A stretch of DNA of 64,000 nucleotides from Opitutaceae bacterium (GTDB lineage: Bacteria; Verrucomicrobiota; Verrucomicrobiia; Opitutales; Opitutaceae), in contig JABTUS010000002.1 in the NCBI GenBank assembly GCA_015075305.1, positions 124,001 to 188,000 of the forward strand, written 5' to 3'. Positions 13,052-61,434 of this stretch are shown one piece after another. A program made the translations under genes and the position numbers. Under the pieces are notes generated by a model. That model had not been told where the DNA came from. It did not search any database and was given only the letters and a program-made list of their open reading frames with translations. Position 1 is the stretch's first letter. Every line of letters starts with the position of its first letter.

Positions 13052-13078
13052 ACTTTGAAGGCAAGAATATCATGCCAA

Positions 13079-13141
13079 GGATAATCGTCTGCTGAGGACA
13101 TTGGCTACGTCCGTTGACTCAATGTTGCGCACTATCGTCGC
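13079..13141 (-). promoter_or_regulatory. Regulon promoter element copy 1 (thiolase operon)
   Basis: Read toward the thiolase gene: a 24-base box (GCGACGATAGTG, n7, TTGAG) at 13141-13118, 7 bases, ACGTAGC at 13110-13104, 18 bases, ATTATCC at 13085-13079 (TATCCT or TTATCC as -10). The inferred transcription start is near 13072, about 20-40 bases ahead of the start codon. The first box is the most diverged of the nine at its outer end, but the spacing is exact. Confidence 0.7.
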
Positions 13142-13241
13142 ACAGGAGGCGGCGATTCCGAATCAGGAACCGCCCGTCGGAGTCGCATATTGGCGATGCT
13201 TCGCCGTGCGGGCGCGCTTTTCCAAGACACAAGTCTGATTT

Positions 13242-14195: not shown

Positions 14196-14265
14196 GACAA
14201 TTCCAATCGTTCTTTTCTCGTCCGGACGCTGACTGGCGAATTCCAACGGAATCCGCTACTCTCAA

Positions 14266-18647: not shown

Positions 18648-18665
18648 TGTTCGTTGTGATGGCAA

Positions 18666-18998
18666 TACTCGGCGAGACAGGATGCTGTAAGTGGCATGGA
18701 TCTGGAGGGGGTAGATTTCACCTTGTCATCATGCTTGTTCCCTCCGTCTGCCGCTACGCTTTATGGCTCAATGCATGGCACTATTATATCGAGATTCGCG
18801 CTTCCGACCCGCTTCCCCCCGAAGGCTTCCAAAGGATTCTTCGGAATAATCCGGCCATGGGCAGTCGGGATTGTGAGTCCCGAGAATTGCGGAGCCTTCG
18901 TCAGAAGATATCCCGCATATTTTTTCATGGGCTTGATTGCGCAACAGCCAGCACAGGACACGGCAAGTTCGGTCGTCGCGCCAGGTGGAAGACGAGCA
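18666..18998. other. 333-base gap holding promoter copy 2
   Basis: The gap between the downstream glycosidase and the upstream sulfatase contains the promoter element at 18728-18790. The rest (18791-18998) has an open minus-strand frame (87 codons, 18761-19024) with no recognisable family and overlapping the sulfatase end; I do not support it as a gene. Confidence 0.5.
18728..18790 (-). promoter_or_regulatory. Regulon promoter element copy 2 (glycosidase/sulfatase)
   Basis: Toward the glycosidase gene: GATATAATAGTG-n7-TTGAG at 18790-18767, 7 bases, GCGTAGC at 18759-18753, 18 bases, GCATGAT at 18734-18728 (CATGAT as -10). The predicted start of transcription is near 18721, giving a leader of about 74 bases before ATG 18647. 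Confidence 0.75.
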
Positions 18999-25200: not shown

Positions 25201-26127
25201 GCTGTCGAAGCGTGTCGCCACCGAGCCAAGGTTCTTGAATCCCGCCTGCTTGAGACTGCTATTGATCAGGCCTCCCGGACTGCCCAGGCCAAAAAGAATC
25301 GCGTTGGGTCCGCGCTGCATTTCCACACGGTCGATATTGTAGGTGTCCCAAGGGATGTCGGTCGTGTTCAGATCGCGGGTGTTGTCGGCAGTGGCAAGGC
25401 CACGGATGCGGTTGTTCTTGTCGGGCTCCGCCAGCATGCCTCGCTCAGTGAGCACGACGCCGTTGCCCGCACCCGTGAAGTTGCCTCCGACCCCGCCGAT
25501 CTCAGTTCCCAGCGTATAGACGAGGAGCTCTCGGCTGTTCCTTGCGCCGATATCCTTGAGAAACTGTGGTGTGATGATCGAGAGAGCTGAGCCAATATCC
25601 CGCCGGTTGGTCCTGATGCGCGTGCCAGCCAATGTGCTTGTCGCCAGATAGCCGTCGTCTTCCTCGCCTGTCACCGTGAAGGGTGAGAGCACGATGGCAT
25701 CGTCATCCTGCGGCGGAGCGTTTCGCGATTCCGACGCTGAAGCCGCGGTTGCCCCGGCGGTCGTGGGCACCGGGGACTCAGTGCGACGTTCGGTCCGCGC
25801 CACCGCCACCGCGCTATTGCTGGCATCCCGGCTGGCGACAAGCGGCGTGTCGGCCAGCATTTGATCAAGCGCCTTGGTGATGTTGAACCTGCCCTTTACC
25901 TCATTGGTCGTCACCCCGGCGAGGTCCGCGTTGGAGTATAGCAACTGCTGGCCTGATTGCGCGGAAAACAATTTCAGGGCATTTACCGCGCTACCAGCAG
26001 GAATATCGAAGGTCGCTTCTCTGGTCATATCCGCAGCCAGCGCGCTCGCGGATAAAGCCAAGCTGCACGCCAAGGTGACGAAGGCTAACCACAAGGACCG
26101 ACAAACAACAGAGGAGTAGGAGGTCAT
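22252..26127 (-). CDS. TonB-dependent outer-membrane receptor with N-terminal STN domain
   Basis: The 1,291-residue protein has a signal peptide, then a secretin/TonB short N-terminal (STN) domain (about residues 36-110: FDIPAGSAVNALKLFSAQSGQQLLYS), a low-complexity linker, a plug domain (about 150-290: GSALSIITPQFLKDIGARNSRELL; VEMQRGPNAILFGLGSPGG), and a long beta-barrel ending in an aromatic residue (ITNTFEF). STN domains signal outer-membrane ligand occupancy through FecR to an ECF sigma factor, and exactly those two genes lie upstream. It should import an oligosaccharide released outside the cell. No SusD-like gene accompanies it. Confidence 0.92.
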   Translation of the reverse strand: MTSYSSVVCRSLWLAFVTLACSLALSASALAADMTREATFDIPAGSAVNALKLFSAQSGQQLLYSNADLAGVTTNEVKGRFNITKALDQMLADTPLVASRDASNSAVAVARTERRTESPVPTTAGATAASASESRNAPPQDDDAIVLSPFTVTGEEDDGYLATSTLAGTRIRTNRRDIGSALSIITPQFLKDIGARNSRELLVYTLGTEIGGVGGNFTGAGNGVVLTERGMLAEPDKNNRIRGLATADNTRDLNTTDIPWDTYNIDRVEMQRGPNAILFGLGSPGGLINSSLKQAGFKNLGSVATRFDSNNSIRASLDLNRVLLKKELAIRLDTLKDRTYYQQKPAFNDDERIFGALRYDPRFLNKGSAHTSLRVNYEHGKIKSNNPRSMPPMDRITPWFETGTTTVNGRVFNNLNKYTDDFRYRNLFFPSIPGSGSLLPSSTFYQPGISDLNNGNYAFLDPGVSGVQIGKYYANQTAYNEAIGGLGPNGSVDGTIGGLFGTARLSMVGTTSEIARRLGVPFAFDIKNKAIVDTSIYDYFHLLIDGPTKRERRNFEAVNIALSQTFWNNRVGLEVAFDHQRYEMSNDAFLWGVGTGDAAITVDVNSLLPDGTPNPNVGRPMVANRSVQGGNGTQTERKDLHVTAFAELRADDFLKQSWLATFLGRHVFTAAVSQNDYFRADQSRGNYAINTGSSLFSGQLFIRREFNTITYLGPDLRGRNSASGLNLSNIQRELFLTNNTAVAFDATWKPSRNPADASYVNPAAVWVNPLRNNLVSTQSENPANYVGWTNVPVQVLSTDLGDKRLLTTFANKGRDKVSSQAFVWQGYFWKDKIVTTFGYRKDIDKAYKIAATNAPDGFADESAARYVLPTTPSNRVNVSSKSYSVVVHTPDFIRNRLPKGMDFSLFYNTSSNFQPAASRVDVLAKPMDSPEGVTTDYGIVVSFLDSRFLVRVNKFDSTANNASYTLLNANVIGDIERASWISAKRYEAGLTGNPLYAGPEYNYGAVVNGVFTQTQADRARQQQDVKAVLDNFAPEIWTAWNLGGQPTDAFWQLGAGASFALPPAGMTGTTDTFSKGYEIELNFKPVNDWDIALNAANIKAGRTNIAGGTMKKWMDARNAVWNGPGGNMLMSGTGTATYSERWNSGVYNNYKLQQLLDGSLAPEVRQWRVNFITNYRFSEGKLKNFNLGGAYRWEDKVVIGYPSITTTINGVSLNSYDIKKPYYGPGDEGLDLWIGYTRKISRNIKWHAQLNTRNLLGKNELIPINAQPDGSAAAFRIKEGVSWQITNTFEF

Positions 26128-26430
26128 GATGGATATGGGCGGAATGCCGCTGGGTTGCTGGGGGTTGCGGAATCCGCTTGGATATACATGACGGAAGGAT
26201 TGAGAAATTCACTAGAAGCTTGCGGGATTTCCTTCGCCAAACCAGCGATCAGACTGCAACAGCTGCCTACCGCGGCCCAAGGCCGGTTCCCTGCCAGTCG
26301 GGCGTGCCTTTAATCCGGTGGTCTGTTACCCGCAGATTCCACCCTAACCTGCCAGTCGGCTTCGTCCCAATGCAGCCTCTGCCATCACCCGCGGGAGCTG
26401 CATGGGATCAATCGTGGCATGAGTGGCATC
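26128..26430. other. 303-base gap between FecR and receptor genes with a direct repeat
   Basis: No gene is visible. The sequence CCTGCCAGTCGG occurs twice (26290-26301 and 26348-26359), 58 bases apart in the same orientation. The receptor promoter, possibly ECF-dependent, should lie here, but I could not define -35 and -10 boxes with confidence. The nine-copy element is absent. Confidence 0.45.
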
Positions 26431-27459
26431 CTACCGGCGAAGGCGAAGGATCGTCTTATCGCCGGAGCGTTCCGCAATGACATCAAAGCGGGCTTCGAGA
26501 AGCTCGACCAGAACCTCGCAATTGTCCGCACGGAAGGTGCCGCCGAACGTGCGGCGGGCGAGACTCGGACTCTCAATGACCAACTGGTGCCGATTGTAAC
26601 GGTTGAATTGCGCCACCACCTCGCTGAGCGGCTGCATGTCGAATTCCAGCAGTTTCACCTGCCAGGCGAGCGCCTCTTTCGCCTCGGGTGAGGAAATCGC
26701 CACAACCGTCGCCGTCGGCATGGCAAACGTGGCGGTCGGCAGGGCGAGCGTTGCCTTTTGACCAGCACCCAGGAGCGGAGGCTGTTCGTTCTGACCCGAC
26801 TTTGGGAGCACGGATTGGCCCCTCGCCGCGTCTTCCAGCCGCACCTTCCCTTCCGTCACCAGCACTTCCAGCCTGGAAGAGGTCAGCGCCACGTTGAAGG
26901 CCGTGCCAACGGCCCGGACCGACACTCCTGCCGCGCTCACGATGAACGGGCGGGCAGGATCCTTCGCCACCGTGAAGAAGGCCTCGCCGCGTCGCAGGTC
27001 CACCCGCCGCTCGTCGGCGGTGAAATTTGCGCTCACGACCGTGTCGCCATTCAACCAGACAGTGGAAGCGTCAGGAAGCTCGAGCTTCTTCATTCCACCC
27101 GCCTCGCTCGCAATGGTGTATTGGACGAGCCGGGGATTGGGACCCGGCCATTGGATAAACACAATGGCAATGGCGGCGGCAGTGGCAAGGACCGTGGGCA
27201 ACCAAACCCTGCGGATCTTGAAAACCGGCCTCCGCTCAACCACCGGCACGCTCTGGAAGCTTCTCAATTTCTTGATACGATCGAGGTTTTTCCAGATTTC
27301 ATCGAACTGGCTGTAATGTTCGGCGTGACGGCAATCCGCACTGAGCCACTTTTGAAATTCCTGTTCTTCATCGGGAGTCAGGCCGACTTCGCGCCGGCCG
27401 AACCACTCGGCGGCCTGGCGATCGATAGCGCGGTTGATGATTCGTGGACCGGTGTTCAT
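26431..27459 (-). CDS. FecR-family anti-sigma/sigma-regulator
   Basis: The 342-residue protein starts at ATG 27459, overlapping the sigma gene stop by 4 bases (ATGA). Layout: a cytoplasmic N-terminal helix bundle of the DUF4880 type (AAEWFGRREVGLTPDEEQEFQKW, residues 12-34), one membrane segment (VLATAAAIAIVFIQW), a periplasmic FecR domain (LPDASTVWLNGDTVVSANF; RGEAFFTVAKDPARPFIVSAAGVSVRAVGTAFNV), and a C-terminal DUF4974/STN-like part. It should relay receptor occupancy from the STN domain of the 22-26 kb receptor to the ECF sigma factor. Confidence 0.9.
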   Translation of the reverse strand: MNTGPRIINRAIDRQAAEWFGRREVGLTPDEEQEFQKWLSADCRHAEHYSQFDEIWKNLDRIKKLRSFQSVPVVERRPVFKIRRVWLPTVLATAAAIAIVFIQWPGPNPRLVQYTIASEAGGMKKLELPDASTVWLNGDTVVSANFTADERRVDLRRGEAFFTVAKDPARPFIVSAAGVSVRAVGTAFNVALTSSRLEVLVTEGKVRLEDAARGQSVLPKSGQNEQPPLLGAGQKATLALPTATFAMPTATVVAISSPEAKEALAWQVKLLEFDMQPLSEVVAQFNRYNRHQLVIESPSLARRTFGGTFRADNCEVLVELLEARFDVIAERSGDKTILRLRR

Positions 27460-28097
27460 GCGCAATCCTTGTGCGCCCCATGGGCCCGGAGGTAATCGCG
27501 GCATTTCATCATGCCGGTCGTGGTGTGGGCGCTGATGGTGTGTCGCGAGATCCCGAGCAGTTTCGAAATCTCGTCATAGGAAAGGTTCTTGAATTTCTTG
27601 AGCAAAATCACCTGTCGGCACCGCTCCGGGAGTGCCAGAACCGCCTCTTCAAGCAGCTCGAGCTCCTGATCATGAATGTCGCCGCCCGTGGCGCCGTGTT
27701 CCTCAATCAAGTCGGGAATTCGCTCGATATTCACTAGATCATCCGTCGGCATGGCGTATTTCCGTCGAAAAACATCCACGGCCAGATTCCGGGCAATGAC
27801 GAACAGCATGGATTTGGGAGACCGAATTCCGCCGTGCGCGCGGACCCGAATGATGCGAAGGTAGGCTTCCTGAATCACGTCATCCACGTCGGTCAGAGAG
27901 GGAAAACGACCGCGCAGGTAGGCTCGGAGCGCCGGCTCGTGTGGGTGCACATCGCTCGCGAACCAGCGGTTTACCTCGCAGGCGGGAAGAACAGACAGAT
28001 GGGTGCAAGCATCCACGGTTTGAAGCAGCCGAATCAACTCCAGTTCAAGCCCGGTCGCATGAGATTGAGGGTGAGCAATGATTTGCCCGCGGACCAA
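27456..28097 (-). CDS. ECF RNA polymerase sigma factor (FecI-like)
   Basis: The recognisable sigma domains start near residue 47: sigma2 LRAYLRGRFPSLTDVDDVIQEAYLRI and FVIARNLAVDVFRRK, then sigma4 LPERCRQVILLKKFKNLSYDEISKLLGIS with its helix-turn-helix. The annotated start is the leftmost TTG; a GTG at 28016 would give 186 residues, closer to the usual size. Translationally coupled to fecR. A copy of the promoter element lies 286 bases upstream of the TTG, so the sigma factor is itself a likely target of the local regulon. Confidence 0.85.
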   Translation of the reverse strand: MVRGQIIAHPQSHATGLELELIRLLQTVDACTHLSVLPACEVNRWFASDVHPHEPALRAYLRGRFPSLTDVDDVIQEAYLRIIRVRAHGGIRSPKSMLFVIARNLAVDVFRRKYAMPTDDLVNIERIPDLIEEHGATGGDIHDQELELLEEAVLALPERCRQVILLKKFKNLSYDEISKLLGISRHTISAHTTTGMMKCRDYLRAHGAHKDCA

Positions 28098-28596
28098 GGG
28101 GAAGGTTCCCTTTCAGCAGTTTCCGCGAAGTGAATTCCTTCCATTGAGAATCGCTCACGCTGCATTCTGGCACCAATGAGCATCCAATCGCTGTCGCGGG
28201 CCGCTTGCGCCATATCTCTGGCCATCCCAGCCCCGTGCGCATCTGAAAGCAAGCGTACCAAGGCGACGCAGATCGCGGACTGGAAACAAAGAATCTGCTT
28301 GTTCATGTTCCAAGTCGGGCAGGGTGGGTGCCGGTGCTGGTTTCTGTGCGATCTCGATTTCGACGCGACCGTTCGGTGTGAGACAGTACTCTTTCACCAT
28401 GCGCTCTACCACGCTTAAGCGCTCAATCGCTGGCACTATTCTCTCGGTAGCCCAACTGCGGCCTTCGGTCCTGCGAAGTCGGGCCGCGTTGTGGGATGCG
28501 GTAGCTGGCTCCAGCTCAAAGGGCAGATCGTGTCAGGTATGGCTGCATAAAGGTGACAGGAATCGGGCTTGCATCCTGAAACCCCGTCGAACCGAT
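28098..28596. other. 499-base gap with promoter copy 3 and a long imperfect hairpin
   Basis: It contains the element at 28383-28445 and an imperfect inverted repeat at 28451-28495 (CCCAACTGCGGCC against GGCCGCGTTGTGGG, two single-base bulges, inner TTCG/CGAA pairing). The hairpin lies about 100 bases after the stop of the upstream propeller gene and may end that transcript, although no T-tract follows. About 280 bases between the predicted transcription start and the sigma gene contain a weak 90-codon frame (28034-28306) that I do not support. Confidence 0.5.
28383..28445 (-). promoter_or_regulatory. Regulon promoter element copy 3 (ECF sigma/FecR/TonB operon)
   Basis: Toward the sigma gene: GAGAGAATAGTG-n7-TTGAG at 28445-28422, 7 bases, GCGTGGT at 28414-28408, 18 bases, GTACTGT at 28389-28383 (TACTGT as -10). 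The first box fits the consensus very well. The inferred transcript has an unusually long leader (about 280 bases or more). Confidence 0.7.
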
Positions 28597-33078: not shown

Positions 33079-36000
33079 TTAGAACTCCAATGTGTTGGTC
33101 ACAGCCCAAGCGGATCCAACCTTGATTCGGTAGGCGGCAGGCGTGCCGTCAGGCTGGGTATTGATTGGGATCAGCTTGTTCTTTCCGAATGCGTTGTCCA
33201 CATTCAGTTGGATTCGCCAGGTGAGCTTCGTATTGATCTTCTTCGAATAACCAATCCAGACGTTGACATTGGTGTCGCGTGGTCCCCAGTAGGGATGCTC
33301 GACATCATAGGTCTCGGACTTTATTCCAGCGATGGTTGCATAGACTGAGGGATAGCCGATCGCGATCTTGTCCTGCCACTGGTACGAACCACCGATATTG
33401 AAGCCTTTGAAACGGCCGCTGGTAAACCGATAATTGGTTATTAGATTGAACCGCCATGGGCGCAGTTCGGCGTTGTTGGTTCCATTGAGAAGCTGGCTCA
33501 GCGACCAAGGGCTCCACACATTCGCATCCCACTGATCCTTCCATGTTGAGCGGCTGGTGCCTGATGTGCGAAGCAATTGACCGCCCGCACTTGTGAAGTA
33601 GGCATTCTCGGCCTCAAGGAACGCCCGAGTGCTCGAACCACCGATATTTGTCTGAACAGCCTTCGTCTTTGCAGCATTCAATGTGATATCCCAGTTGTCA
33701 GTCGGCTTGAGGTAGAGTTCATACTCATATCCTTTCGACTCATTGTCACTGGTTGCAGTCATGCCATCCGGAAGAAACCCGCCGAGGCCTGCCGTCCATG
33801 GCTCATTGTAGTTATTTTGCCAGCGGTAGTCAGACATTGCGGCTTGGCTGCCAATCGGCATTTTCCACGCTTCCCAAAAGGCGGGATTGGTGATGAAAGG
33901 CGAACTGAGTGTGGCCTGAACTGCGGCCTTCTGATCGGCGATGTCCTGTGCCGTCTGAGTAAATACACCATTCACATTGGTGCCATAGTTGTAGCTGGAT
34001 CCCGCATACTTTGGATCGCCCGTCAGACCCGCCTCGAAGCGTTTTGCGGCGACCCACGTGCGCACCACAAGACTTCCTGCAAGCCATGCATTGGCCACAT
34101 TGTAGTTGGCACCGGTGGACAGCGACTCATACTTCGTAACCTTGAGCGCAATCCGGCCATTCATTGCTGAAAGCATGACTCCATAATCCTTCGTTTCACC
34201 CGAGGGCGGAGCAATGGGCACGTTCATGATGTCCACACGGCTGGAGGCGGGTACAAAGTTCTTCGACTTGTTGGCAAAGAGACTGATATTAATGTCGGTC
34301 GGCAAACGTCGGCGAATGAACATGGGAGTATGCACCACTACACTGTAGCTCCGAGTCTGGCCCTTTATGGTGTTGAAGGGTTTCTCTGGAAGCACATACG
34401 AGGGGTCCTGCTCGTTTACTGTGCCGTAGTTCGTTGTCGGCTGAACCTTGGAATAGGACTTTGCGGTATCCTCGCGCCAACCATAAGTGGGAATGACGGT
34501 ATTGTCGAACAGCGAACCCTGGTAAACAAGTATCCTCGATGCCAGGGAGCTTCGCCGTTTGACGGAGCTGGTGAGCAGGGAGTCCATGTCGGGCTCGAAA
34601 TAGAGCGTGTCCACCGGAAGATTGACCCAGCCGACGTAATTGGCGGGATTCTCCGACTGAGTGGAATTCGTGCGCCTCCACGGATCAAACCAAGTTGCCG
34701 CCGGGTTTACGTAACCGTTCGCAGCCGGATCGGTTGGCTTGTTCCATCGGGAATTGAACACCCGCAGTTGCGAACCCGATGCTGGACGCTGGTCAACCGA
34801 AACGGCATTGAGGTTACTGCCTTGAGCTGAGGTGGCATTCGCAAGACTCGAACCAAGATAGCTGATGGTCTGGAACCAACGGTAAGGATCAAGCGCACTG
34901 CCAATGATTGCATCCGGGTCGGCTGTGGCACCCAGAGGAGCAAAGGCGGAGCTTGCCGCGCTCCGCAACTTGCTCTTGTAATCGGTTTCATTGTAGACGC
35001 CGGTAAGCGTATGACGTCCAATGATCTTGGTTAGCCATGATTCACGCAGAACGTCCGTGGCCCGAAATTCGGCAAATGCGGTCGCGCGTTTGGATTCGCG
35101 GCGACTGCCGGAATCGGAGCCACCATAATATGTCGAGGTGGTGATGAATGGGCGACCCACATTCGGATTGGGTGAGCCATCTCCCAAGACCGTGTTTATG
35201 TCGACCGTGATGGCACCGTCAGTTCCATTGTATGGATTATAGTCATTCAGATAGTGATGCTGCTTGTCGTAAACGAGCTCTATGCCCAGGCGGTTTTCGA
35301 AGTAGGTCTGGCTCAGGTGAAGGTTGATTGCCTCAAATTCCTGACGCGTCAACCGATTCGGGCCCGAGATGCCCTTGTTGTAGAAGTCAAAGATTGAGGA
35401 ATCGGTAAGGCTGGCATTCTTGTAAGCGCTGGCGAACGGGAGCTTCGCCGCCGCGGCCGCCTGTTGCTGCTGGGTAATAACAAGCAGCCCGTTCGTCGGC
35501 ATGCCTTGGATGCTCTTGTCAATGGTTCCGTTAGGCGCGAGACCATACTGCTGACCGACATAGAACATGCCTGGAGCGCGGAATGGACCGCTCTGCGTAC
35601 TGGAAGACGGATCAGGGAAAATCGCGTAGCTTCCCTGGTAAAGGCCTGTCAACCATGGCTGGAAGTTGGGACTGCTTGCCGTCATTGAACCAGAGTTGGC
35701 AACGTCCGCGAAGTAGTAGTTGGCGTAGTTGAAATCAAAGGTCCTCTTCGCAAGATTCAGATGCTGATACCCTGCTGTGTTTGCAGGCATCGTTCCGGTC
35801 GCGAACCAGGGAGTTATCCGATCGACCGGAGGCATCGTGTAGGGATTGCGCGCCTTGACTTTCCCCGTTTCAAAATTGGCGCGCAGAGACGTGCTGATCG
35901 ACTTGGTATTGAGAAACTTCGGGTCGTAGCGAAGCGCTCCATAAACGCGCTTGTTGTCGGAAAACGAGGGCTTTTGCTGAAAATAGGTGTAGTCCTTGAG

Positions 36001-36768
36001 CAGGTCGACCCTCATGGCCAACTCGTCCTTCAGAAGAACCTGATTCTTATCCAGCGCGAAGCGCCAGCTGCCATGGCTGCCATAACGTCCGGTAATTGAA
36101 CCGTTGCTCTTCCGCAGATCAGCCTGCTTTAGGCTGGAATTGATGAGACCCGCTGGGCTGCCCAATCCGAAAAGGATGGAATTGGCGCCGCGTTGGATTT
36201 CGATTGTATCGACATTGTACGCGTCCCACGGGATGTCGGACGATTCAAATTCGCGCGTATTGTCCGCAGCACTGAGCCCGCGGATGCGCGTATTAAGATC
36301 CGGTCGCGCCATTTTTCCCCACTCGTAAACGGTCTGACCCGCGCCGTTGCCACCGAAGTTGCCATAGAGTCCTCCCACTTCGGTGCCGGTCGTCATCGTC
36401 AGGAGGCTCTGGGTATTCGTCGCCCCTGTATCCCTCAGAAACTGCGAAGTGACGATCTGAAGGGCTGAACCAATGTCATCAACGTTGGAACGAATGCGAG
36501 TTCCAGCCAGGGTGGTCTTCGCCCGATAGCCTGTCTGGGCCTCTCCGTAGACATTGAACGGCTCAAGACGGACTGTCGCATCTTCCGATGATTCGGTGTC
36601 CTCCGTCGATGCGACGTCGGCAGCAGTAAGCGGCCGAGCGGGTGTCGTGGAGGCGGACCCCGATCCGGGGCTTGCAGCTTGACCCGATAGGGAGACGGCG
36701 GCTGCCGCCGACGCAAGTAGCGCGCAGAGCGGCTGCAGGAATTGCCTGAATCCAAGTATGTTGTTCAT
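33079..36768 (-). CDS. TonB-dependent outer-membrane receptor without STN domain
   Basis: The 1,229-residue protein has a signal peptide, a short Ser/Thr/Ala-rich linker, then the plug (ALQIVTSQFLRDTGATNTQSLL; TIEIQRGANSILFGLGSPAG) and a long barrel ending in VTNTLEF. It closely resembles the 22-26 kb receptor throughout plug and barrel, but begins directly at the plug, so it cannot signal through FecR. Promoter copy 4 lies 75 bases upstream of its start, and a divergent AraC gene is on the other side of that promoter. Probable import of a glycan fragment. Confidence 0.92.
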   Translation of the reverse strand: MNNILGFRQFLQPLCALLASAAAAVSLSGQAASPGSGSASTTPARPLTAADVASTEDTESSEDATVRLEPFNVYGEAQTGYRAKTTLAGTRIRSNVDDIGSALQIVTSQFLRDTGATNTQSLLTMTTGTEVGGLYGNFGGNGAGQTVYEWGKMARPDLNTRIRGLSAADNTREFESSDIPWDAYNVDTIEIQRGANSILFGLGSPAGLINSSLKQADLRKSNGSITGRYGSHGSWRFALDKNQVLLKDELAMRVDLLKDYTYFQQKPSFSDNKRVYGALRYDPKFLNTKSISTSLRANFETGKVKARNPYTMPPVDRITPWFATGTMPANTAGYQHLNLAKRTFDFNYANYYFADVANSGSMTASSPNFQPWLTGLYQGSYAIFPDPSSSTQSGPFRAPGMFYVGQQYGLAPNGTIDKSIQGMPTNGLLVITQQQQAAAAAKLPFASAYKNASLTDSSIFDFYNKGISGPNRLTRQEFEAINLHLSQTYFENRLGIELVYDKQHHYLNDYNPYNGTDGAITVDINTVLGDGSPNPNVGRPFITTSTYYGGSDSGSRRESKRATAFAEFRATDVLRESWLTKIIGRHTLTGVYNETDYKSKLRSAASSAFAPLGATADPDAIIGSALDPYRWFQTISYLGSSLANATSAQGSNLNAVSVDQRPASGSQLRVFNSRWNKPTDPAANGYVNPAATWFDPWRRTNSTQSENPANYVGWVNLPVDTLYFEPDMDSLLTSSVKRRSSLASRILVYQGSLFDNTVIPTYGWREDTAKSYSKVQPTTNYGTVNEQDPSYVLPEKPFNTIKGQTRSYSVVVHTPMFIRRRLPTDINISLFANKSKNFVPASSRVDIMNVPIAPPSGETKDYGVMLSAMNGRIALKVTKYESLSTGANYNVANAWLAGSLVVRTWVAAKRFEAGLTGDPKYAGSSYNYGTNVNGVFTQTAQDIADQKAAVQATLSSPFITNPAFWEAWKMPIGSQAAMSDYRWQNNYNEPWTAGLGGFLPDGMTATSDNESKGYEYELYLKPTDNWDITLNAAKTKAVQTNIGGSSTRAFLEAENAYFTSAGGQLLRTSGTSRSTWKDQWDANVWSPWSLSQLLNGTNNAELRPWRFNLITNYRFTSGRFKGFNIGGSYQWQDKIAIGYPSVYATIAGIKSETYDVEHPYWGPRDTNVNVWIGYSKKINTKLTWRIQLNVDNAFGKNKLIPINTQPDGTPAAYRIKVGSAWAVTNTLEF

Positions 36769-36842: not shown

Positions 36843-36905
36843 AGAATGCCAGTTTCCAGGCACAACGGCTACGCCTCAACTCTCAAACGCTGACACTATT
36901 ATCTC
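36843..36905 (-). promoter_or_regulatory. Regulon promoter element copy 4 (second TonB receptor; divergent to AraC gene)
   Basis: Toward the receptor: GAGATAATAGTG-n7-TTGAG at 36905-36882, 7 bases, GCGTAGC at 36874-36868, 18 bases, GCATTCT at 36849-36843 (CATTCT as -10). This is the copy closest to the consensus. The predicted start is near 36836, a leader of about 68 bases. The remaining 195 bases up to the AraC gene show a small GGGTC/GACCC hairpin (36961-36981) and nothing else recognised. Confidence 0.8.
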
Positions 36906-37100
36906 ACCTCGCAATTTCAGCCCAGAGACTGACCACCGCACGCGGAACAAATCACTGGATGGGTCGCAAAAAAGCGGACCCGTGTGAGCTTCCCGCCTCA
37001 AGATTTGCCCAAGTTTGCGCACTGTGTCAGGAGTTCAACGCAAGCACCTTCATCCTGCCTTGCCATTCGAAATCGACGATGAAAGCCTCTCGAAACATCG

Positions 37101-38027
37101 ATGCCCCTGCAACGCGAAGAAATTCAGTTCGCCTCAAACAGCACCCTTCGCATTCTCCGTTGGAACCGGAGCGTTGATCGTGTTGAAATCGTGCAAGGCG
37201 CGGGCCGGTCCGTGCCAATTTCAGGCCATGGCGATCACTGGCACTATCATCGAGCACAGGAGTTGACTTTCATTCAGCGTGGTTCAGGCACGCGTTTCGT
37301 CGCGGATCACATAGAACTTTTTGAGGCGGGCGACCTGCTGCTGATCGGCGCGAATGTGCCGCACTATTGGCACCAGCGGAGCGTTTCGTCCGGTCTGGCC
37401 ATTCAATGGGATTTTCCCTTCGATCACGGCATTTGGAGCCTCGGGGAGACGGCATCGCTGCGCAGGCTCGCCGATTTTTCACTGCGCGGTCTTCATTTTG
37501 AGGGCAGGACCGCGGAAGTTGCGCGCCGCCAGATGGAAGAACTGCAGAATCTCACCGGTCTCGCGCGCCTGGCTCTCTTTCTGCAGATTCTCGACGGGCT
37601 CGCTCGTGCGCCTGGCAGGGAAGTCCGGCCGTTGTCCGCCCGCCCGTTTGCACTGACGGGTTCAGCGGAGCACCAGGAGGCAATTCGCCAGGCAGTCAGC
37701 TATATTCTCGCCCACTTTCATCAGCCGATCGGGCTCTCCGAACTGCTGCGTCTAACCAGCATGAGCCGAGCAACCTTTGCGCGGCAGTTTCGCCGTCATG
37801 CCGGCAGATCGTTCTCGACGTTTCTCAACCAGGTAAGACTACAGGCTGTCTGCCGCGCGCTTCGCGACACCACCGAGCTGGTCGGAAACATCGCGCTCGA
37901 CAATGGATTCAGCCAGCTCTCATTCTTCAATCGGCTCTTCCGTCGCGAATTCGGCTTGTCTCCCAAGGAATTCAGGGAAACAAAATCGAAAACCCGTGCG
38001 CTGCCAGACAGCCCGATTGGCCAGTAG
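37101..38027 (+). CDS. AraC-family transcriptional regulator with N-terminal cupin domain
   Basis: The 308-residue protein has a cupin-like sensing domain (about residues 30-90: HGDHWHYHRAQELTFIQRGSG; ELFEAGDLLLIGANVPHYW) and two C-terminal helix-turn-helix motifs (about 195-295: IGLSELLRLTSMSRATFARQFRR; LVGNIALDNGFSQLSFFNRLFRREFGLSPKEFR). The ATG at 37101 is directly before the fold. It is the only AraC-type regulator in the window and is divergent from a gene with promoter copy 4. The element geometry, a 24-base box immediately before a weak -35 region, fits class II AraC activation, so I propose it as the activator; the sugar ligand is unknown. Confidence 0.88.
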   Translation: MPLQREEIQFASNSTLRILRWNRSVDRVEIVQGAGRSVPISGHGDHWHYHRAQELTFIQRGSGTRFVADHIELFEAGDLLLIGANVPHYWHQRSVSSGLAIQWDFPFDHGIWSLGETASLRRLADFSLRGLHFEGRTAEVARRQMEELQNLTGLARLALFLQILDGLARAPGREVRPLSARPFALTGSAEHQEAIRQAVSYILAHFHQPIGLSELLRLTSMSRATFARQFRRHAGRSFSTFLNQVRLQAVCRALRDTTELVGNIALDNGFSQLSFFNRLFRREFGLSPKEFRETKSKTRALPDSPIGQ

Positions 38028-39051: not shown

Positions 39052-39187
39052 GCAATCGCGCACACCGACCACAGTGTAGTCGACGAGACTGTGCAGGACA
39101 TACTTCAGAGGTCTTGCGGCGAAGCGGCCGAGCAAGGTCGCCGAGGATGGATTCCGTCCTGTTCAGGCAAGTCCGCGTCTGATACCT

Positions 39188-39250
39188 GAGACAACAATAT
39201 CAACGATTGAGCGAAAAGTCGTAGAGGTTGTGAGGTATCCCCGATATGGT
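39188..39250 (+). promoter_or_regulatory. Regulon promoter element copy 5 (xylose-isomerase-like gene)
   Basis: GAGACAACAATA-n7-TTGAG at 39188-39211, 7 bases, TCGTAGA at 39219-39225, 18 bases, ATATGGT at 39244-39250 (TATGGT as -10). Transcription should start near 39257, which excludes the in-frame GTG-region start at 39246 and supports ATG 39285. Confidence 0.65.
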
Positions 39251-39284: not shown

Positions 39285-40328
39285 ATGTCCAGCTTGAACA
39301 ACTACCGCTTTTCCTTTGGTCCTTGGAACATCAGTGAGGGCTCCGATCCGTTTGGCCCCATGACACGGGCTGCAGTCGACATCGAATCCAAGTTCGCACT
39401 TTACCGTCCGATGGGTTTCGAAGGCGTGCAGTTCCACGATGATGACGTGGTTCCTGACATCGACAGTCTGACACACGCACAGGTGCTGGCGAAGGCGGCC
39501 GGTGTGAAGAAGGCATTGGACAACCAGGGCCTCGCCGCAGAATTTGTGGCGCCAAGACTTTGGTTCGCACCGCAGACCATTGATGGAGGCTACACATCCA
39601 ATTCAGCCGCCGACCGTCAATATGCGATCGACCGCTCATTGCGCTCGATCGACATGGCCCGCGCCATCGGCACAAAAGCGATTGTGCTGTGGCTTGCGCG
39701 TGAAGGAACGTACGTTCGTGAGGCCAAGAATGTCGTCACCGCCTACCAACGTCTTCTCGAAGCTGTCAACAGGATGCTGGCCTACGACAAGACCATCGAG
39801 GTTTGGATCGAGCCGAAACCCAACGAACCCACCGACCTCGCATTTGTGCCGACTGCCGGTCACGCGGTATCGCTGGCCTACGCGTCTGACGACCAGAGTC
39901 GTGTGAAGATCGTCATCGAAAGCGCGCACGCCATTCTCGCCAATCTTGACCCTGCGGATGAAATGGCCTTCGCGCTCGCTCATGACAAACTGGGCAGCAT
40001 TCACCTGAACGACCAGAACGGGCTGAAGTACGACCAGGACAAGAATTTTGGAAGCGCCAACCTTCGCGGAGCCTTCAACCAGGTCTTGGTGCTCGAAGAG
40101 CATGGGTATGGCCGACGCGGCGAATTCGTGGGCTTGGATGTGAAGGCCATGCGCACGCAGCGCGGCTCTCCGGTCATTGATCACCTGAAGACCACGCGCC
40201 AGATCTTTCTTGATCTCGTCACAAAAGTCCGAGCGTACGACCGCAGGCGTGTCGAAGACTTCCGTGCGGCGCGAGACTATGAGGGCTTGGAGCTCTACAC
40301 GCTCCAGCATCTTCTAGGCGCCCGCTAG
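39285..40328 (+). CDS. Xylose-isomerase-like TIM-barrel sugar isomerase
   Basis: The 347-residue protein aligns by eye with class I xylose isomerases: FHDDD (His51), LWLAREG, WIEPKPNEP (Glu176, Lys178), VIESAH (Glu212, His215), KYDQDKNFG (Asp250, Asp252) and FVGLDVKAMRTQ (Asp285). One expected metal ligand differs: where XylA has HIDLN, this protein has SIHLN, giving His240 in place of Asp. It is about 40 residues shorter than XylA. It likely isomerises an aldose to a ketose in the cytoplasm; whether the sugar is xylose is open. The stop codon TAG now overlaps the TA target of an IS630 insertion without loss of coding sequence. Confidence 0.8.
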   Translation: MSSLNNYRFSFGPWNISEGSDPFGPMTRAAVDIESKFALYRPMGFEGVQFHDDDVVPDIDSLTHAQVLAKAAGVKKALDNQGLAAEFVAPRLWFAPQTIDGGYTSNSAADRQYAIDRSLRSIDMARAIGTKAIVLWLAREGTYVREAKNVVTAYQRLLEAVNRMLAYDKTIEVWIEPKPNEPTDLAFVPTAGHAVSLAYASDDQSRVKIVIESAHAILANLDPADEMAFALAHDKLGSIHLNDQNGLKYDQDKNFGSANLRGAFNQVLVLEEHGYGRRGEFVGLDVKAMRTQRGSPVIDHLKTTRQIFLDLVTKVRAYDRRRVEDFRAARDYEGLELYTLQHLLGAR

Positions 40329-41532
40329 TGTTCTGTTGCTGAAATGACTAGACTTAAAAGTCGTTATCGTTCAACCTGCAAGCATGAGCAGGAAACCGAC
40401 GATTCTGACGGTCACGGCAGACCAACGTGGCGTTTTGGAGCGCTGGGTGGGCGCGCACGGTACGCCCCAGCAGGTGGTGAAGCGCTGCCGGATCATTTTG
40501 CGCAAGGCCGAAGGGCTGGACGATGCCACGATTGCGGAGGAGCTGGAGGTGAACCGGCACACCTGCCGGCTGTGGCGCCAGCGCTTTGTGTCCGCAGGTC
40601 CGCAAGGATTGTGGGACGTGGCGAATGGCCGCGGGCGCAAGCCGCGCCGAGGGCTGGCGAAAAGGATCGTCGAAGCGACGCTGCACACGAAGCCGCCGGG
40701 GCGGACGCACTGGAGCGCGCGAACCCTGGCGAAGGCGCAGGGCGTGCATGCGAGCACAGTCGCGCGTATCTGGCAGGAGCATGGGTTGCAGCCGCACCGA
40801 CAGGAGACGTTCAAACTCTCCCGCGATCCACAGTTTGTGCCCAAACTGCTCGATGTGGTGGGCGTTTACCTCAACCCACCGCAAAACGCGGTGGTGCTCT
40901 GCGTGGACGAGAAAAGCCAGATTCAGGCGCTGGATCGCACGCAACCAGGCCTGCCGCTGAAGCGCGGTCGCTGCGGCACCTGGACGCACGACTACGTGCG
41001 CCATGGCACGACCACGCTGTTTGCCGCATTGAACGTGGCCGCCGGCAAGATCAGCGGCCACTGCTTCCCGCGCCACCGGCACATCGAGTTCCTGAAGTTC
41101 CTGCGACAAATCGACGCGGAATATGCCGAGGCGGACGAGCTCCATCTTATCGTCGACAATTACGGCACCCACAAACACGAGCGGGTGCAGCGCTGGCTCG
41201 CCCGGCGTCCACGCTTCAAACTGCACTTCATTCCCACCAGTTCGAGCTGGCTCAATCTGGTGGAGCGCTGGTTTGCCGAACTCACCGGCAAGGCGGTGCG
41301 TCGCGGCAGCTTCTCCAGTGTTCCCGATCTGATCAACTCGATCACCCGCTTCATCGAGCAATGGAACCAGGAGCCCACGCCATTTGTTTGGACCGCCAAG
41401 GCGGAGGACATCCTTGCCAGGATCGAACGCTGTCGTCGCCGGCTCGAGGCCATCCAGCCCGGTTGCACCCGGCGAAAGCCGCGCAAGAAGGCCGCATGAT
41501 ATATGTATAGTCATTTCCGCGACAGAACACTA
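40326..41532 (+). mobile_element. IS630-family insertion sequence with TA target duplication
   Basis: The element spans 40328-41530 between TA dinucleotides at 40326-40327 and 41531-41532. Its terminal inverted repeats (40328-40353 and 41505-41530) match at 23 of 26 positions and begin GTGTTCTGT. A single intact transposase is inside. It inserted exactly at the TAG stop of the isomerase gene; because the element begins with G, the stop codon is rebuilt. It separates the isomerase from the oxidoreductase gene that follows. Confidence 0.92.
40384..41499 (+). CDS. IS630-family transposase
   Basis: The 371-residue protein has an N-terminal helix-turn-helix pair (LDDATIAEELEVNRHTCRLWRQRF; HWSARTLAKAQGVHASTVARIWQEHGL) and the DDE catalytic residues in VVLCVDEKSQI, LIVDNYGTH and NLVERWFAEL. 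It is intact, so the element may be active. It is the only transposase in the window. Confidence 0.95.
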   Translation: MSRKPTILTVTADQRGVLERWVGAHGTPQQVVKRCRIILRKAEGLDDATIAEELEVNRHTCRLWRQRFVSAGPQGLWDVANGRGRKPRRGLAKRIVEATLHTKPPGRTHWSARTLAKAQGVHASTVARIWQEHGLQPHRQETFKLSRDPQFVPKLLDVVGVYLNPPQNAVVLCVDEKSQIQALDRTQPGLPLKRGRCGTWTHDYVRHGTTTLFAALNVAAGKISGHCFPRHRHIEFLKFLRQIDAEYAEADELHLIVDNYGTHKHERVQRWLARRPRFKLHFIPTSSSWLNLVERWFAELTGKAVRRGSFSSVPDLINSITRFIEQWNQEPTPFVWTAKAEDILARIERCRRRLEAIQPGCTRRKPRKKAA

Positions 41533-47837: not shown

Positions 47838-49781
47838 TCATAAGTCCCAACGCGCAGCCCGCGGCTTGCGCAGGAGGATTTTCACGACCGCGCCGGGCTT
47901 GAGATCAAACTCCACCACCAGGTGGGTTTCACCCGCCGTGTTGCCAACGAGGGTGTAGGGCAGTCCGCCGGTATCGATTTCCGCGGGAGAAGCGTCGCTG
48001 GCGATCGGCACGTTCCACAACGCGAGGGCGTACCCGGGGAAAGTGGCCTCGGTCTGCATGTCCAGGGTGAGCGTGAGTCCGGCGGATGCGTCGAAGCGCT
48101 GGGTCCGGCGAACCCGAACGTCGGGGAGGACTGTCCGGTGGAGGACGCTGCCCTTTTCCCTGCTCTCGGTCCGGGTGTAATCGAACCACCAGACCGGGTT
48201 GGGGCTCTCGCGCTCGAAGCGCACCTGCCGCCGCTGCTCCTCGATGAGGATGAATTCGCACGAAAGCGGATCCTTGAAGGGCAGGCTCAGGGCGGTGGTG
48301 GGCACAACCGGGGTCTCGCGCAGCCGCTGCACGGTGGAGAGCCGGGTGCTCCACGGGATCCGGGCTGGCGAGGAAAGCACGCCATGGTGGTTCAACGAGC
48401 CATGGGTCCACCAGGCATCGTAGAGCTGGTGTCGGGTCCGGCTGGAATACACGGTGCGCGGCGTCGCCGGGTAGTGGCGGCGGAAGTAATCCACGAAGTC
48501 GAGGCTTCGGGCAAAAGCCAGCTTGTACCGCTTGGTGAGCTCGAAGGCGAGCAGGCGCTGGTAACGCTCGACATAAGCGAGCATGGCGGCCGTGTGGTCT
48601 CCCGCATAAAAGATCGGGTTGGGATTGTCACCCCACGCGCGGTCGGTGCCTCCGTAGAGCGGGGTCACGATCGCCGGACGGCGATTCATCTTCGCCAGGT
48701 TGCGCAGCTCGTCCAGGCCGTCCTCGAGACACTCGACCGTGCGCTCGAAGCGGCCTTCGGCGGCGCTATAGTGCCAGTCCACCGGCCCGAGGAAATGAAA
48801 TGATCCGCAGAAATCCCACTGGTGGGCCACGACCTCGCCACCGCCCCCCTGACGTATGCGCCGGCTGTCCTCGGGCGAGGAATAATAGGGAAATTCCGGC
48901 ATGCCGAGCCAGGGCATGCAATTGGCCTCAACGAGGCCGCAGTGGTCGTTGATCCCAAGAGCCGCGAAGGCGCGCGGGTATCCCGGGTCCTCGTTGTGCC
49001 GCATCTCGACGCGGACAGCGCGATGGTCGAGCGGATCGGGGATGAACACGCGGGCCTTGGCCAGGCCCTCCCCGTATGCCTGTACGAGTTCCTCGTGCGT
49101 GGTGCCCGGCAGGTCCGGCAGATGCGGCACGACAAGGTCACCGAAGCTCCGGTTGTACCCGAGCAATTTCCGACCCGTGGGATTGTCGGGGTTGAATTGG
49201 TCCAGCGGCAGACGGTAATCCAGCGGGATTCCCGTGGCATGAAGCGTCGGCTCCGGCGTCAGACTGCCGAACGTGGAAAAGGACAGCACGATGTAAGTCT
49301 CATCGATCACCGCAAAGTAGCGGTACTGAACTTCGTTTCCGGTCCGCCATTCCGCGAGGTAGTTCCCAGTCTGCACCGGCCGGTAGCGAAAGACGGCGGC
49401 GGCGCCTTCCCGGATGAGCGACGCCGGTTCGGACGGAAGCCGGGCCAGCCACCGTAGGTCGCCTCCCGCCTGGAATGCATCGCCGGGGTCCGCCTGTTCG
49501 AGATAGCGCGGGTAAATGCGAAGTTGACCGGCATCGACTTCCGGCGGCAGGTGAAACCGGAACTCGATCGACTCACCGAGGCTCAGGAGCCGGCTCGTCG
49601 TGGTCCAAAATGGCTGAGCACCGCTCACCGCGACTTGGAAGGCTGCAACGCCGATCAGGATACCAAGCGCGCACGATAACGAACGGAATCGCAGCGGCGA
49701 CAAGGCTGACAACGTCCTGTCAGAGGCAGGTGAAGAGGGAAGCGGTGGTGGACCAAACATGCGGATAGGGTTAGTCGACAT
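47838..49781 (-). CDS. Secreted protein of unknown function
   Basis: ATG 49781 (overlapping the previous stop by 11 bases) gives 647 residues with a membrane-spanning leader (CALGILIGVAAFQVAVSGAQ). No family was recognised. It has an N-terminal beta-rich part (SLGESIEFRFHLPPEVDAGQLRIYP), a central region rich in Trp, His and Asp (HQWDFCGSFHFLGPVDWHY; GGTDRAWGDNPNP) that could hold an active site, and a C-terminal beta-sandwich-like part. An alternative start is ATG 49760. Its position inside an operon of glycan-active enzymes suggests a carbohydrate role. The longer reading to 49940 is rejected as overlap. Confidence 0.7.
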   Translation of the reverse strand: MSTNPIRMFGPPPLPSSPASDRTLSALSPLRFRSLSCALGILIGVAAFQVAVSGAQPFWTTTSRLLSLGESIEFRFHLPPEVDAGQLRIYPRYLEQADPGDAFQAGGDLRWLARLPSEPASLIREGAAAVFRYRPVQTGNYLAEWRTGNEVQYRYFAVIDETYIVLSFSTFGSLTPEPTLHATGIPLDYRLPLDQFNPDNPTGRKLLGYNRSFGDLVVPHLPDLPGTTHEELVQAYGEGLAKARVFIPDPLDHRAVRVEMRHNEDPGYPRAFAALGINDHCGLVEANCMPWLGMPEFPYYSSPEDSRRIRQGGGGEVVAHQWDFCGSFHFLGPVDWHYSAAEGRFERTVECLEDGLDELRNLAKMNRRPAIVTPLYGGTDRAWGDNPNPIFYAGDHTAAMLAYVERYQRLLAFELTKRYKLAFARSLDFVDYFRRHYPATPRTVYSSRTRHQLYDAWWTHGSLNHHGVLSSPARIPWSTRLSTVQRLRETPVVPTTALSLPFKDPLSCEFILIEEQRRQVRFERESPNPVWWFDYTRTESREKGSVLHRTVLPDVRVRRTQRFDASAGLTLTLDMQTEATFPGYALALWNVPIASDASPAEIDTGGLPYTLVGNTAGETHLVVEFDLKPGAVVKILLRKPRAARWDL

Positions 49782-51794: not shown

Positions 51795-51857
51795 AGCCTA
51801 TCAGTTCATGGAGACCGTCTCTCCATCTGAATTCTCAAATAGCAGTACTATCATCTC
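51795..51857 (-). promoter_or_regulatory. Regulon promoter element copy 6 (51.8-kb enzyme operon)
   Basis: Toward the propeller gene: GAGATGATAGTA-n7-TTGAG at 51857-51834, 7 bases, ATGGAGA at 51826-51820 (a poor match to RCGTAGC), 18 bases, ATAGGCT at 51801-51795 (TAGGCT as -10). The hexamer ends 6 bases before the GTG start at 51789. Confidence 0.6.
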
Positions 51858-51887
51858 ATCGATGCCACGTGGTGCGGATCTTCGTGA

Positions 51888-54800: not shown

Positions 54801-55001
54801 AAGGGTTCTTGGAAAATGTGCATCGCCCAACTTTACCCATAAAGGAAAATCAGCAAGATCTTCGCCGATCGACGAAGCGTCGATGCCAATATGCTGGCGA
54901 TGGGTCCATGCCTTGTCCCACCATTCGTTCGCATGCAGGAAGCCCGCGGACGCAAGAATGAATGCGACGCATCGAACACCGCGCAGTTTTCGTGAAGCCA
55001 T
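51888..55001 (-). CDS. Secreted DUF2341-LamG-GH127 multidomain protein (beta-L-arabinofuranosidase-like)
   Basis: ATG 55001 gives 1,037 residues with a signal peptide. Residues 25-125 are DUF2341-like (WWDKAWTHRQHIGID), 140-340 a LamG/concanavalin-like binding domain, 365-450 a fibronectin-like segment, and 470-1030 a GH127 (DUF1680) catalytic module. The GH127 zinc site is visible: ETCC (Glu743, Cys745) and SCCSTN (Cys817, Cys818), with a candidate acid/base Glu730. GH127 enzymes release beta-L-arabinofuranose, though the family is broader. Divergent from the GH2 gene, with one promoter element for each direction between them. Confidence 0.8.
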   Translation of the reverse strand: MASRKLRGVRCVAFILASAGFLHANEWWDKAWTHRQHIGIDASSIGEDLADFPLWVKLGDAHFPRTLSADGGRDLRAIGADGAVLDLEMVSWRPDDIRFYVRIPKIKAGTSGQGFDLYLGNPHAPALPTKLIWDKSHLAVLHLSGDLTDATGRGSDLLKQGFVVQNGWTAGLIMDQSHRWITFDSSNRGYLEVTPPQDQAASPNLTLICRFRPANTEPLTLFSSSGFDVLTSGGRLLFRSGTSELSLDGVGIGQWQSAVFSYNAATGSRLISLGGRGTAKDFHSLLRLESTQVRIGRSVSDAKESQYGGDIEEVRLLAGNPSEAWIKATALNLSEENSLIVPGELRAIGGKPAPPPPPQLLGPSDGSHSYKPKGTKLQWLPSLGAGEYRVLTFKDARGTQLLKTVAAGTSREINLTLDQAGASDIYWTIVARSPQGETRSRQIHRLIFHEANSRDWLLSPGQAVTPQLVKPAHLEIRLQGYLGGRIRRLAEYMKSFTQQNPGLLRIQRERPEKGLPPWAGVFTGQYLSSAQLIWRVTRNPELKAHVDAFVRDLISTQRADGYLGPFESIAGSLELWNHYATLCGLLDYYEDTQYRPALEAARRVADLVIQAYGPAGDVLPKTGGASESISHAIVRLYGVTRDQRYLDLANYMIHEAWNEPGGVAFYHLGQGHPTVSDFPVRRWESVHNIMALSEMYWLSGDVSYKTAFERLWRTLRRTERHITGGFSTNEGLLGTPFNKGTIETCCTVAWSLLSTDMLRLTGDSRVADELEWSAINSALGSIPYGGTCSTYATQPDGLRQFCVLNRQGPHDGRALSCCSTNAARALGNIANWALMENQDGLVLNFYGPSKIVADLESGNRISLEQTTQYPSRGGIRLGVTVKEPETFTLHLRIPEWSAQTRVTLNGKALSAPPAGSYLPIRRQWNTGDTLTLLLDFTPRFQTGAEDYAGKVAVFQGPILFSCDARYNAGQQEQPIALTLDGLKIEPIETPAGEGPWILARLTDGGGRQFNACDFSSAGLFGDKYTSWFDLKQGGTVR

Positions 55002-55007
55002 GAGACA

Positions 55008-55071
55008 GGTATGCACCAATTTCCAAGCGAGATACTACGCCTCAGCACTCAATCTTCGCTACTATTTGCTC
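55008..55071 (-). promoter_or_regulatory. Regulon promoter element copy 7 (GH127 gene)
   Basis: Toward the GH127 gene: GAGCAAATAGTA-n7-TTGAG at 55071-55048, 7 bases, GCGTAGT at 55040-55034, 19 bases (one more than the others), GCATACC at 55014-55008 (CATACC as -10). The -10-like hexamer ends 6 bases before ATG 55001 and no ribosome-binding site precedes that ATG, so a leaderless message is predicted. Confidence 0.7.
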
Positions 55072-55258
55072 AGCGAAGGCACGATTTCCCTGCACTTCGG
55101 GTTCGCAGATCCTCCCGGACACGCACTTTCTCAAACCCGCGGAGCAGTCCACTACGACAACGAGATTCACCGCTATGATCTCACGGAGTTCCTCGAAGAC
55201 ACTCTCGAGCAGGACCGCATTCAGCAGCGCATATTTTATGACCACGCTTTTCTTCATT

Positions 55259-55321
55259 GAGCCAATAATGTGATTCTTTGAGAGCATAGACGTAGCCTTC
55301 ATCCACATAAGAAGGCATGCT
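55259..55321 (+). promoter_or_regulatory. Regulon promoter element copy 8 (GH2 gene)
   Basis: GAGCCAATAATG-n7-TTGAG at 55259-55282, 7 bases, ACGTAGC at 55290-55296, 18 bases, GCATGCT at 55315-55321 (CATGCT as -10). The predicted start is near 55328, a leader of about 92 bases. It is nearly identical to copy 9 from TTCTTTGAG onward. Confidence 0.75.
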
Positions 55322-61285: not shown

Positions 61286-61371
61286 CGGGAATTGCTGAAA
61301 CGCACCGGAGGTCCAAAAAAATTGCTGTTCGCATGCGAATGAGTCGAAGCTAACATTGGTGCACACACGCT

Positions 61372-61434
61372 GAGCGAATAGTCCCATTCTTTGAGCTCAT
61401 GCACGTAGCTTGGAAGCATCGGAAAAGGCATGCT
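61372..61434 (+). promoter_or_regulatory. Regulon promoter element copy 9 (DegT gene)
   Basis: GAGCGAATAGTC-n7-TTGAG at 61372-61395, 7 bases, ACGTAGC at 61403-61409, 18 bases, GCATGCT at 61428-61434 (CATGCT as -10). The predicted start is near 61441, a leader of about 108 bases before ATG 61549. A perfect 12-base palindrome, TTCGCATGCGAA, lies upstream at 61328-61339. Confidence 0.75.

Follow-up and report, generated by a model that had tools for sequence, protein, structure and literature searches.

A predicted AraC/RhaR-type activator and its tandem-repeat operator in a polysaccharide-degradation gene cluster of an Opitutaceae bacterium

The regulator and the surrounding gene cluster

The window (the whole stretch of 64,000 nucleotides that we analyzed) lies on C2, a 551-kb contig of an Opitutaceae bacterium. 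The gene cluster in this region holds several sulfatases, members of GH127 and GH2, TonB receptors, a PIG-L deacetylase, and an SSF transporter; just past the window are a polysaccharide lyase and two further sulfatases. Given the sulfatases, glycoside hydrolases, TonB receptors, and lyase, this is likely to be a sulfated-polysaccharide cluster. In its middle lies the gene for an AraC/RhaR-type regulator (Table 1).

Table 1. The regulator gene, the predicted operator copies, and neighboring genes (window positions)
Feature	Position	Strand	Remarks
Operator copy 1	13104..13142	-	before thiolase gene 11855-13051
Operator copy 2	18753..18791	-	before CBM4_9 protein 16272-18665
Operator copy 3	28408..28446	-	degenerate 3' end; ~300 nt before ECF sigma ORF 27456-28097
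TonB-dependent receptor	33079..36768	-	Plug domain; first gene behind copy 4
-10 hexamer of copy 4 (CATTCT)	36843..36848	-	
Operator copy 4	36868..36906	-	half-site 1 36890-36906, half-site 2 36869-36885
AraC/RhaR-type regulator	37101..38027	+	308 aa; N-terminal cupin-type sensor and double-HTH DNA-binding domain
Operator copy 5	39187..39225	+	before xylose-isomerase-like gene (start 39285)
Xylose-isomerase-family TIM-barrel protein	39285..40328	+	PF01261
Operator copy 6	51820..51858	-	before ORF 49771-51789
Operator copy 7	55034..55072	-	before GH127 gene; ATG 6 nt after -10
Operator copy 8	55258..55296	+	before GH2 gene
Operator copy 9	61371..61409	+	before DegT-type aminotransferase

The regulator has the C-terminal double helix-turn-helix (HTH_18 / HTH_AraC) of the AraC/XylS family: it scores over the cut-offs for HTH_18 (PF12833; E = 6.8e-21, 74.8 bits) and PF00165 (40 bits). 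No other HTH_18 protein (E <= 1e-5) is encoded in the window, in line with the first-pass annotation, or anywhere else on the contig, although the whole genome has 16, including this one. The cupin domain that had been noted in the protein is also there: Cupin_2 matches at E = 1.4e-6 (28.3 bits, cut-off 27.2). In the AlphaFold2 model (mean pLDDT of 85.3), the sensor domain has an RhaR/AraC-like fold, and an N-terminal cupin-type domain is the hallmark of the sugar-responsive AraC subgroup. Among the matches listed, the closest solved sensor domain is that of E. coli RhaR (Z = 14.4, rmsd 2.8, 147 residues, 19% identity), followed by arabinose-bound AraC (2arc_B; Z = 11.2, 13% identity over the structurally aligned part) and the lactose sensor BgaR (Z = 11.1). 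The C-terminal domain matches AdpA bound to DNA (Z = 15.9, rmsd 1.6, 110 residues) and MarA bound to DNA (Z = 12.6), and it also resembles the DNA-binding structures of AraC. But the protein is far below the NCBIfam equivalog cut-offs for RhaS (56.4 bits, with a cut-off of 288), RhaR (46.3; 363), and AraC (55; 208). It is a member of the AraC/XylS family, and both the regulator and its DNA signal, which is described below, seem to be undescribed so far.

The xylose-isomerase-like protein scores 202 bits against TIGR02631, which is under the cut-off of 447. Between its gene and a MocA oxidoreductase is an IS630-family transposase (40384-41499, plus strand; NCBIfam, 247.8 bits). Since the xylose-isomerase-like and MocA genes are adjacent in L002, G055, G082, and G065, the insertion sequence probably entered the operon in this genome. 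(Handles beginning with G, C, and L are ours, for genomes, contigs, and loci.) Also inside the cluster is a surface-signaling triad of an ECF sigma factor, FecR, and an STN-type TonB receptor (22252-28097, minus strand). At 9312-9443 of the window are two 35-nt repeats that are 91% alike, 97 nt apart from start to start, and contain a GCCCCAACGGGGC palindrome.

Ten copies of a tandem-repeat operator

The first-pass annotation had proposed nine related promoters in the window, and all nine were recovered. EM motif discovery on the upstream regions of 37 ORFs, with no motif supplied, found eight of them, and a scan with a position weight matrix (PWM) added the ninth. With a 50-mer PWM, the nine copies scored 32.7-56.3 bits, the next window position scored 3.0, and the maximum from 20 shuffles was 7.8. 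(Each copy was scored with a PWM of the other 8 plus itself; the ninth, at 32.7, was outside the PWM.) EM also gave diffuse solutions in nearly every region, one of them with a log-likelihood of 226.4, as compared to 223.1 for the operator, but these look like coding composition and we set them aside.

When up to 3 mismatches were allowed, a search of the whole genome returned 11 matches: the nine window copies, a site at C2:194430 on the plus strand, and a match on contig C7 with 3 mismatches, which we attribute to chance. The reversed control pattern had no matches anywhere in the genome. The site at C2:194430 is 6.4 kb past the end of the window and precedes a TonB receptor of 1220 residues (L027). 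All ten sites lie at 137-194 kb of C2 in a genome of 4.87 Mb, so they are restricted to one 57-kb cluster.

Every one of the nine window sites has a same-strand ORF of at least 150 codons within 450 nt of its -10 hexamer. Copy 3 is the weakest case and may be a relic. The interval from copy 3 to the ECF gene has a small open frame of ~90 codons (28035-28305, minus strand; identified by eye), which may be what is left of a gene that copy 3 formerly served. For copy 9, the aminotransferase ORF starts at 61399, within the operator itself; translation therefore probably begins at an ATG that is 114 nt past the -10 hexamer. Copy 4 lies between the regulator gene and the TonB receptor gene and is divergent from the regulator, as had been noted; we predict that it is the promoter of the receptor. 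(The region singled out in the first-pass annotation starts at 36843, which is the last base of the -10 hexamer of copy 4.) The position of copy 4 is conserved in front of regulator orthologs. Copy 4 had also been called the best consensus match. This depends on the scoring: it has the top 39-mer PWM score of the nine (50.1 bits), but copy 8 narrowly exceeds it when the 50-mer PWM is used (56.3 as compared to 55.5 bits).

Some of the same genes are behind sites in related genomes. These include the ortholog of the TonB receptor (G055 and G082), the thiolase (G055 and G082), and the xylose-isomerase-like gene (G055, G082, G065, and G215). Operator sites in relatives also precede thiolase, CoA-transferase, and short-chain dehydrogenase genes (L078, 3595-7046; L085, 5165-7471), and a thiolase is behind an operator in the window as well (11855-14246, minus strand). 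A 3-keto-acid/CoA pathway that is tied to a polysaccharide regulon would be unusual.

To describe the operator, we collected matches of at least 24 bits from selected loci (n = 55; weaker true sites are missed). Reducing these by similarity left 53 sites, which still include a coding match from G067; 54 sites, with G067 dropped, were used for the -10 analysis. The first-pass annotation had described a box of 24 bases, but the conserved element is longer, at 38-39 bp, and is built from a 17-bp half-site, TGAGnnnnTAGnnnnAG, that occurs twice in direct orientation, with a period of 21 bp. The consensus from the 53 sites (from this genome and its relatives) is TGAGAnAATAGTGCCA-n3-wTTGAGynnnnAGGCGTAGC. 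Among offsets of 4-29, the internal similarity of the motif peaks at 21 (53 sites; P = 0.0007 by column permutation). In 14 other sites, all but one from outside the family, the identity is 0.50 at offset 21 and 0.35 or less elsewhere between offsets 6 and 28 (P = 0.0001), but because these sites were chosen by their best match to a consensus with GAG in both halves, this test is partly built in. (The set leaves out G420, a near copy of G432, and the homologs that have no site.)

A -10 element, GG-YATnnT, follows at a nearly fixed distance: in 36 sites the hexamer begins 19 nt past CGTAGC, in 17 sites it begins 20 nt past it, and in just one of the 54 it is elsewhere. The log-likelihood of this element is 224, as compared to 49 or less in 8 shuffles. 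The half-sites end 20-21 bp before the -10. In three cases (54999-55013, minus strand, in the window; L006, 5880-5895, minus strand; L009, 5845-5861, minus strand), the -10 hexamer is followed by a start codon at a distance of 6-8 nt, which raises the possibility of leaderless transcripts. If the spacer is 17 bp, the -35 slot reads TAGCnn. It takes in the last 3 bp of the second half-site and matches a -35 poorly, as had been claimed.

A long conserved element in front of genes could also be an RNA leader or a repeat element instead of a DNA operator. But the repeats are direct and not inverted, and because the -10 is downstream of the element, transcripts from that promoter do not include it. 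We view this idea as practically negligible. Tandem direct-repeat half-sites 21 bp apart, with the proximal half-site over the -35 position and a -10 at promoter spacing, are instead the layout expected of a class II activator of the AraC family, and the first-pass reading of the promoters as class II agrees with this geometry.

The same layout bears on whether the regulator might bind these sites but chiefly repress, as an apo-repressor of promoters that are otherwise competent. Repressor sites more often cover the region from the -10 to the start. Here the site is upstream of the -35 slot and overlaps it, the -35 is poor, and a -10 is present, all of which fits activation. There is a precedent for repression, in that AraC itself represses without its sugar (as described in PMC4760080), but we consider a chiefly repressing role for this regulator to be highly improbable.

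Co-occurrence of the regulator and the operator

The first-pass annotation had suggested comparing the co-occurrence of this regulator clade and the motif across genomes. We did this for 252 genomes of the family, using a motif pattern that finds 9 of the 10 sites in the genome of origin (copy 6 is missed). Homologs of the regulator at E <= 1e-60 are found in 12 of the 252 genomes, 6 of them at 57-100% identity, and motif matches are found in 13. All six genomes with close orthologs (at least 57% identity) have at least two sites, as compared to 1 of the other 246. (The pattern has 9 matches in each of G000, G055, and G065, 10 in G215, 8 in G082, and 2 in G064.) For this table (6/0/1/245), Fisher's exact test gives P = 2e-11; this and the P value for the phylum, below, overstate the independence of the genomes, which are related. 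In USDV, whose homolog is 62% identical, the site is 1.8 kb from the regulator gene and precedes the xylose-isomerase-like gene.

The motif is not strictly confined to genomes with the clade. G132 has 3 sites on an 18.9-kb contig without an ortholog of the regulator. This assembly is 81% complete and also lacks the xylose-isomerase-like gene, which adjoins the regulator gene, so the contig with both is likely to be missing. None of the other 245 genomes without a close ortholog has two or more sites. Six of them have a single match: four are coding, one is chance-like, and the sixth, in G120, may be real. It adjoins a 62% homolog of MocA on a 3.3-kb contig, has no -10 at the usual distance, and is found in a genome with just a 37% AraC homolog, which is encoded elsewhere. 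The four that we rejected as protein-coding (G025, G067, G091, and G068, which are related genomes that have this coding sequence in common) encode YVFxLKFWQYPL or close to it on the other strand, as judged by eye.

The motif might have been tied to the xylose-isomerase-like neighbor instead of to the AraC gene. Of the 12 loci whose AraC is at least 40% identical, 10 have a homolog of this neighbor (at least 70% identity) close to the AraC gene; in one of the 10, L008, another gene lies between the two, L095 lacks the neighbor, and L096 has just a 25% homolog. But the xylose-isomerase-like gene is present in 32 of the 252 genomes, and motif matches are found only in the six of these that have a close AraC ortholog, so we rejected this possibility.

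Two other candidates for the protein that reads the motif need to be weighed. First, the ECF sigma factor that is encoded in the cluster along with its FecR anti-sigma factor could recognize the element as its promoter. The ECF, FecR, and STN-type receptor genes are all in the window, and the ECF gene is preceded by copy 3. But no ECF homolog (E <= 1e-10) is found on the motif-bearing contigs of G055, G082, G065, G215, or G132, and in G064, which is a single contig, the ECF homologs are all over 350 kb from the sites. Also, 38 bp of conserved columns with a 21-bp repeat, followed by a separate sigma-70-like -10, is unlike the plan of an ECF promoter. Because a cognate ECF sigma factor does not co-occur with the motif, this explanation is largely refuted, and we give it almost no credence. 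Since relatives' motif-bearing contigs lack the ECF homolog, the triad is probably a later insertion.

Second, another AraC-type paralog, or a regulator of another kind, could bind the sites, with the local AraC protein merely co-inherited. The genome does encode 15 further HTH_18 proteins, the sites in G132 and perhaps G120 have no close ortholog of the regulator, and a Pfam scan found NrtR-type and DeoR-type proteins at the edges of the G065 cluster. It also gave a partial match to a sigma-54 activator at 22-1449 of the window. However, the site is kept directly before orthologs of the regulator in several families, and AraC is the only DNA-binding family common to the scanned ORFs of the G000, G055, and G065 clusters (the scan covered 10 of the 32 listed ORFs in G055 and 10 of 29 in G065). 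No other DNA-binding family was found in the ten scanned ORFs of the G055 cluster or in nine ORFs beyond the window. We think that a different reader is very unlikely and that the local regulator is probably the protein that recognizes the motif.

The association extends across the phylum. Among 387 genomes, 18 have the regulator (E <= 1e-60), 18 have the motif, and 13 have both; in 12 of the 13, a motif match is beside the regulator gene (Fisher P = 1e-16). Ten orthologs from outside the family, at 44-49% identity, have a divergently oriented site 42-124 nt ahead of the regulator gene, so the co-occurrence holds in other families as well. In a survey of 31 loci (two of them, L002 and L097, are one record), a divergent site with at least 23 of 30 positions matching was present in 18 distinct orthologs; the own-strand control reached at most 18. 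Sites in G441 and G022 (21 each), G568 (19), and G269 and G258 (17 each) were marginal, and six homologs at 39-45% identity (G125, G130, G249, G092, G069, and G313) had no divergent site above the level of the own-strand control. G125 (L094) does have a weak element, of 15.9 bits, before a xylose-isomerase-like gene. We disregarded matches in G049, G374, G489, G537, G437, and G568 (C7), and second matches in G482 and G485, as chance hits that do not adjoin an ortholog. G523 has a second match on C23.

With a pattern tuned to the orthologs, eight of the ten genomes with non-family orthologs have one match genome-wide and the other two have two, as compared to 8 matches in each of G000, G055, and G065. 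This suggests that the regulon grew in the lineage of G000, G055, and G065. In four more distant homologs (G441, G568, G269, and G258; 37-41% identity), both half-sites of the candidate elements end ACA-type and not GCCA/CGTA. These proteins have SHFxHxF in place of SFFNRLF as their second recognition helix, with no change in the first helix (TFxRxF) or in the TGA box. Two of the four candidate elements do not outscore the own-strand control, which makes operator drift no more than a suggestion. We see it as an even bet that this is an ancient verrucomicrobial regulator-operator pair, in which one divergent operator expanded to a regulon of 8-10 promoters in one lineage, and in which the inner parts of the half-sites and the second helix changed together in distant homologs.

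Proposed mechanism and relation to known regulators

From the sequence analyses, we predict, with a probability of about 90%, that the protein is an AraC/RhaR-type activator of its own polysaccharide-degradation gene cluster. The first-pass annotation had named it the likely activator of the nine promoters, and both the co-conservation of regulator and motif and the geometry of the operator favor this. What the computation shows directly is that there are ten sites with a common architecture, that a -10 follows them at a fixed distance, that they are confined to the cluster, and that they are co-conserved with the regulator across the phylum; physical binding, activation, and a sugar ligand are inferred.

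In the proposed mechanism, the cupin domain would sense a small sugar that is released from the polysaccharide degraded by the cluster. Two DNA-binding domains would then occupy the tandem 17-bp half-sites (TGAGnnnnTAGnnnnAG), 21 bp apart, with the downstream half-site reaching the -35 position of a sigma-70-type promoter whose -10 is GG-YATnnT. As there is no good -35, RNA polymerase would be recruited through contact with the activator (class II). This would activate ten or more transcription units across 57 kb, with targets that include genes for TonB receptors, GH127, GH2, thiolase, the xylose-isomerase-like protein, a CBM protein, and the aminotransferase.

This mode of action is known, while the operator is apparently new. 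The araI1-araI2 operators of AraC have 17-bp half-sites with a 21-bp period and overlap the -35. At araBAD of E. coli, the promoter-proximal operator araI2 recruits RNA polymerase, and AraC likewise has a cupin sensor, a double HTH, and two proximal operators (as described in PMC4760080). The regulator differs from AraC in its half-site sequence, in having ten dispersed promoters, and in the 13% identity of its sensor domain. CdhR of Pseudomonas aeruginosa is reported to bind half-sites (GGTCGC) with a 15-bp spacer, which gives the same 21-bp direct-repeat period, and its gene is also divergent from its target, but it belongs to the GATase-1-like subfamily and acts from a class I position (PMC5806209). 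The activator site of AggR, from enteroaggregative E. coli, is 21-22 bp before the -10, close to the 20-21 bp here, but a single site can suffice for AggR, as compared to two tandem half-sites here (PMC6392122). CgrA (ZGAL_3159), of the carrageenan regulon of Zobellia in another phylum, is also an AraC-family protein and positively regulates a polysaccharide cluster of the sulfatase/GH127 type (PMC5698469). Among the titles and abstract openings listed by our searches of open-licence papers, none showed an operator or AraC-type regulator for verrucomicrobial polysaccharide clusters.

With a defined operator, membership in the regulon can be read from the sequence, even for unannotated genes. 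The operator also suggests a design for inducible promoters in the Verrucomicrobiota. Regulon growth could be put to the test by comparing the homologs that have one site and those that have ten. If the proposed history is true, the regulator and its operator are a natural series for watching how a regulon grows and how its operator code drifts.
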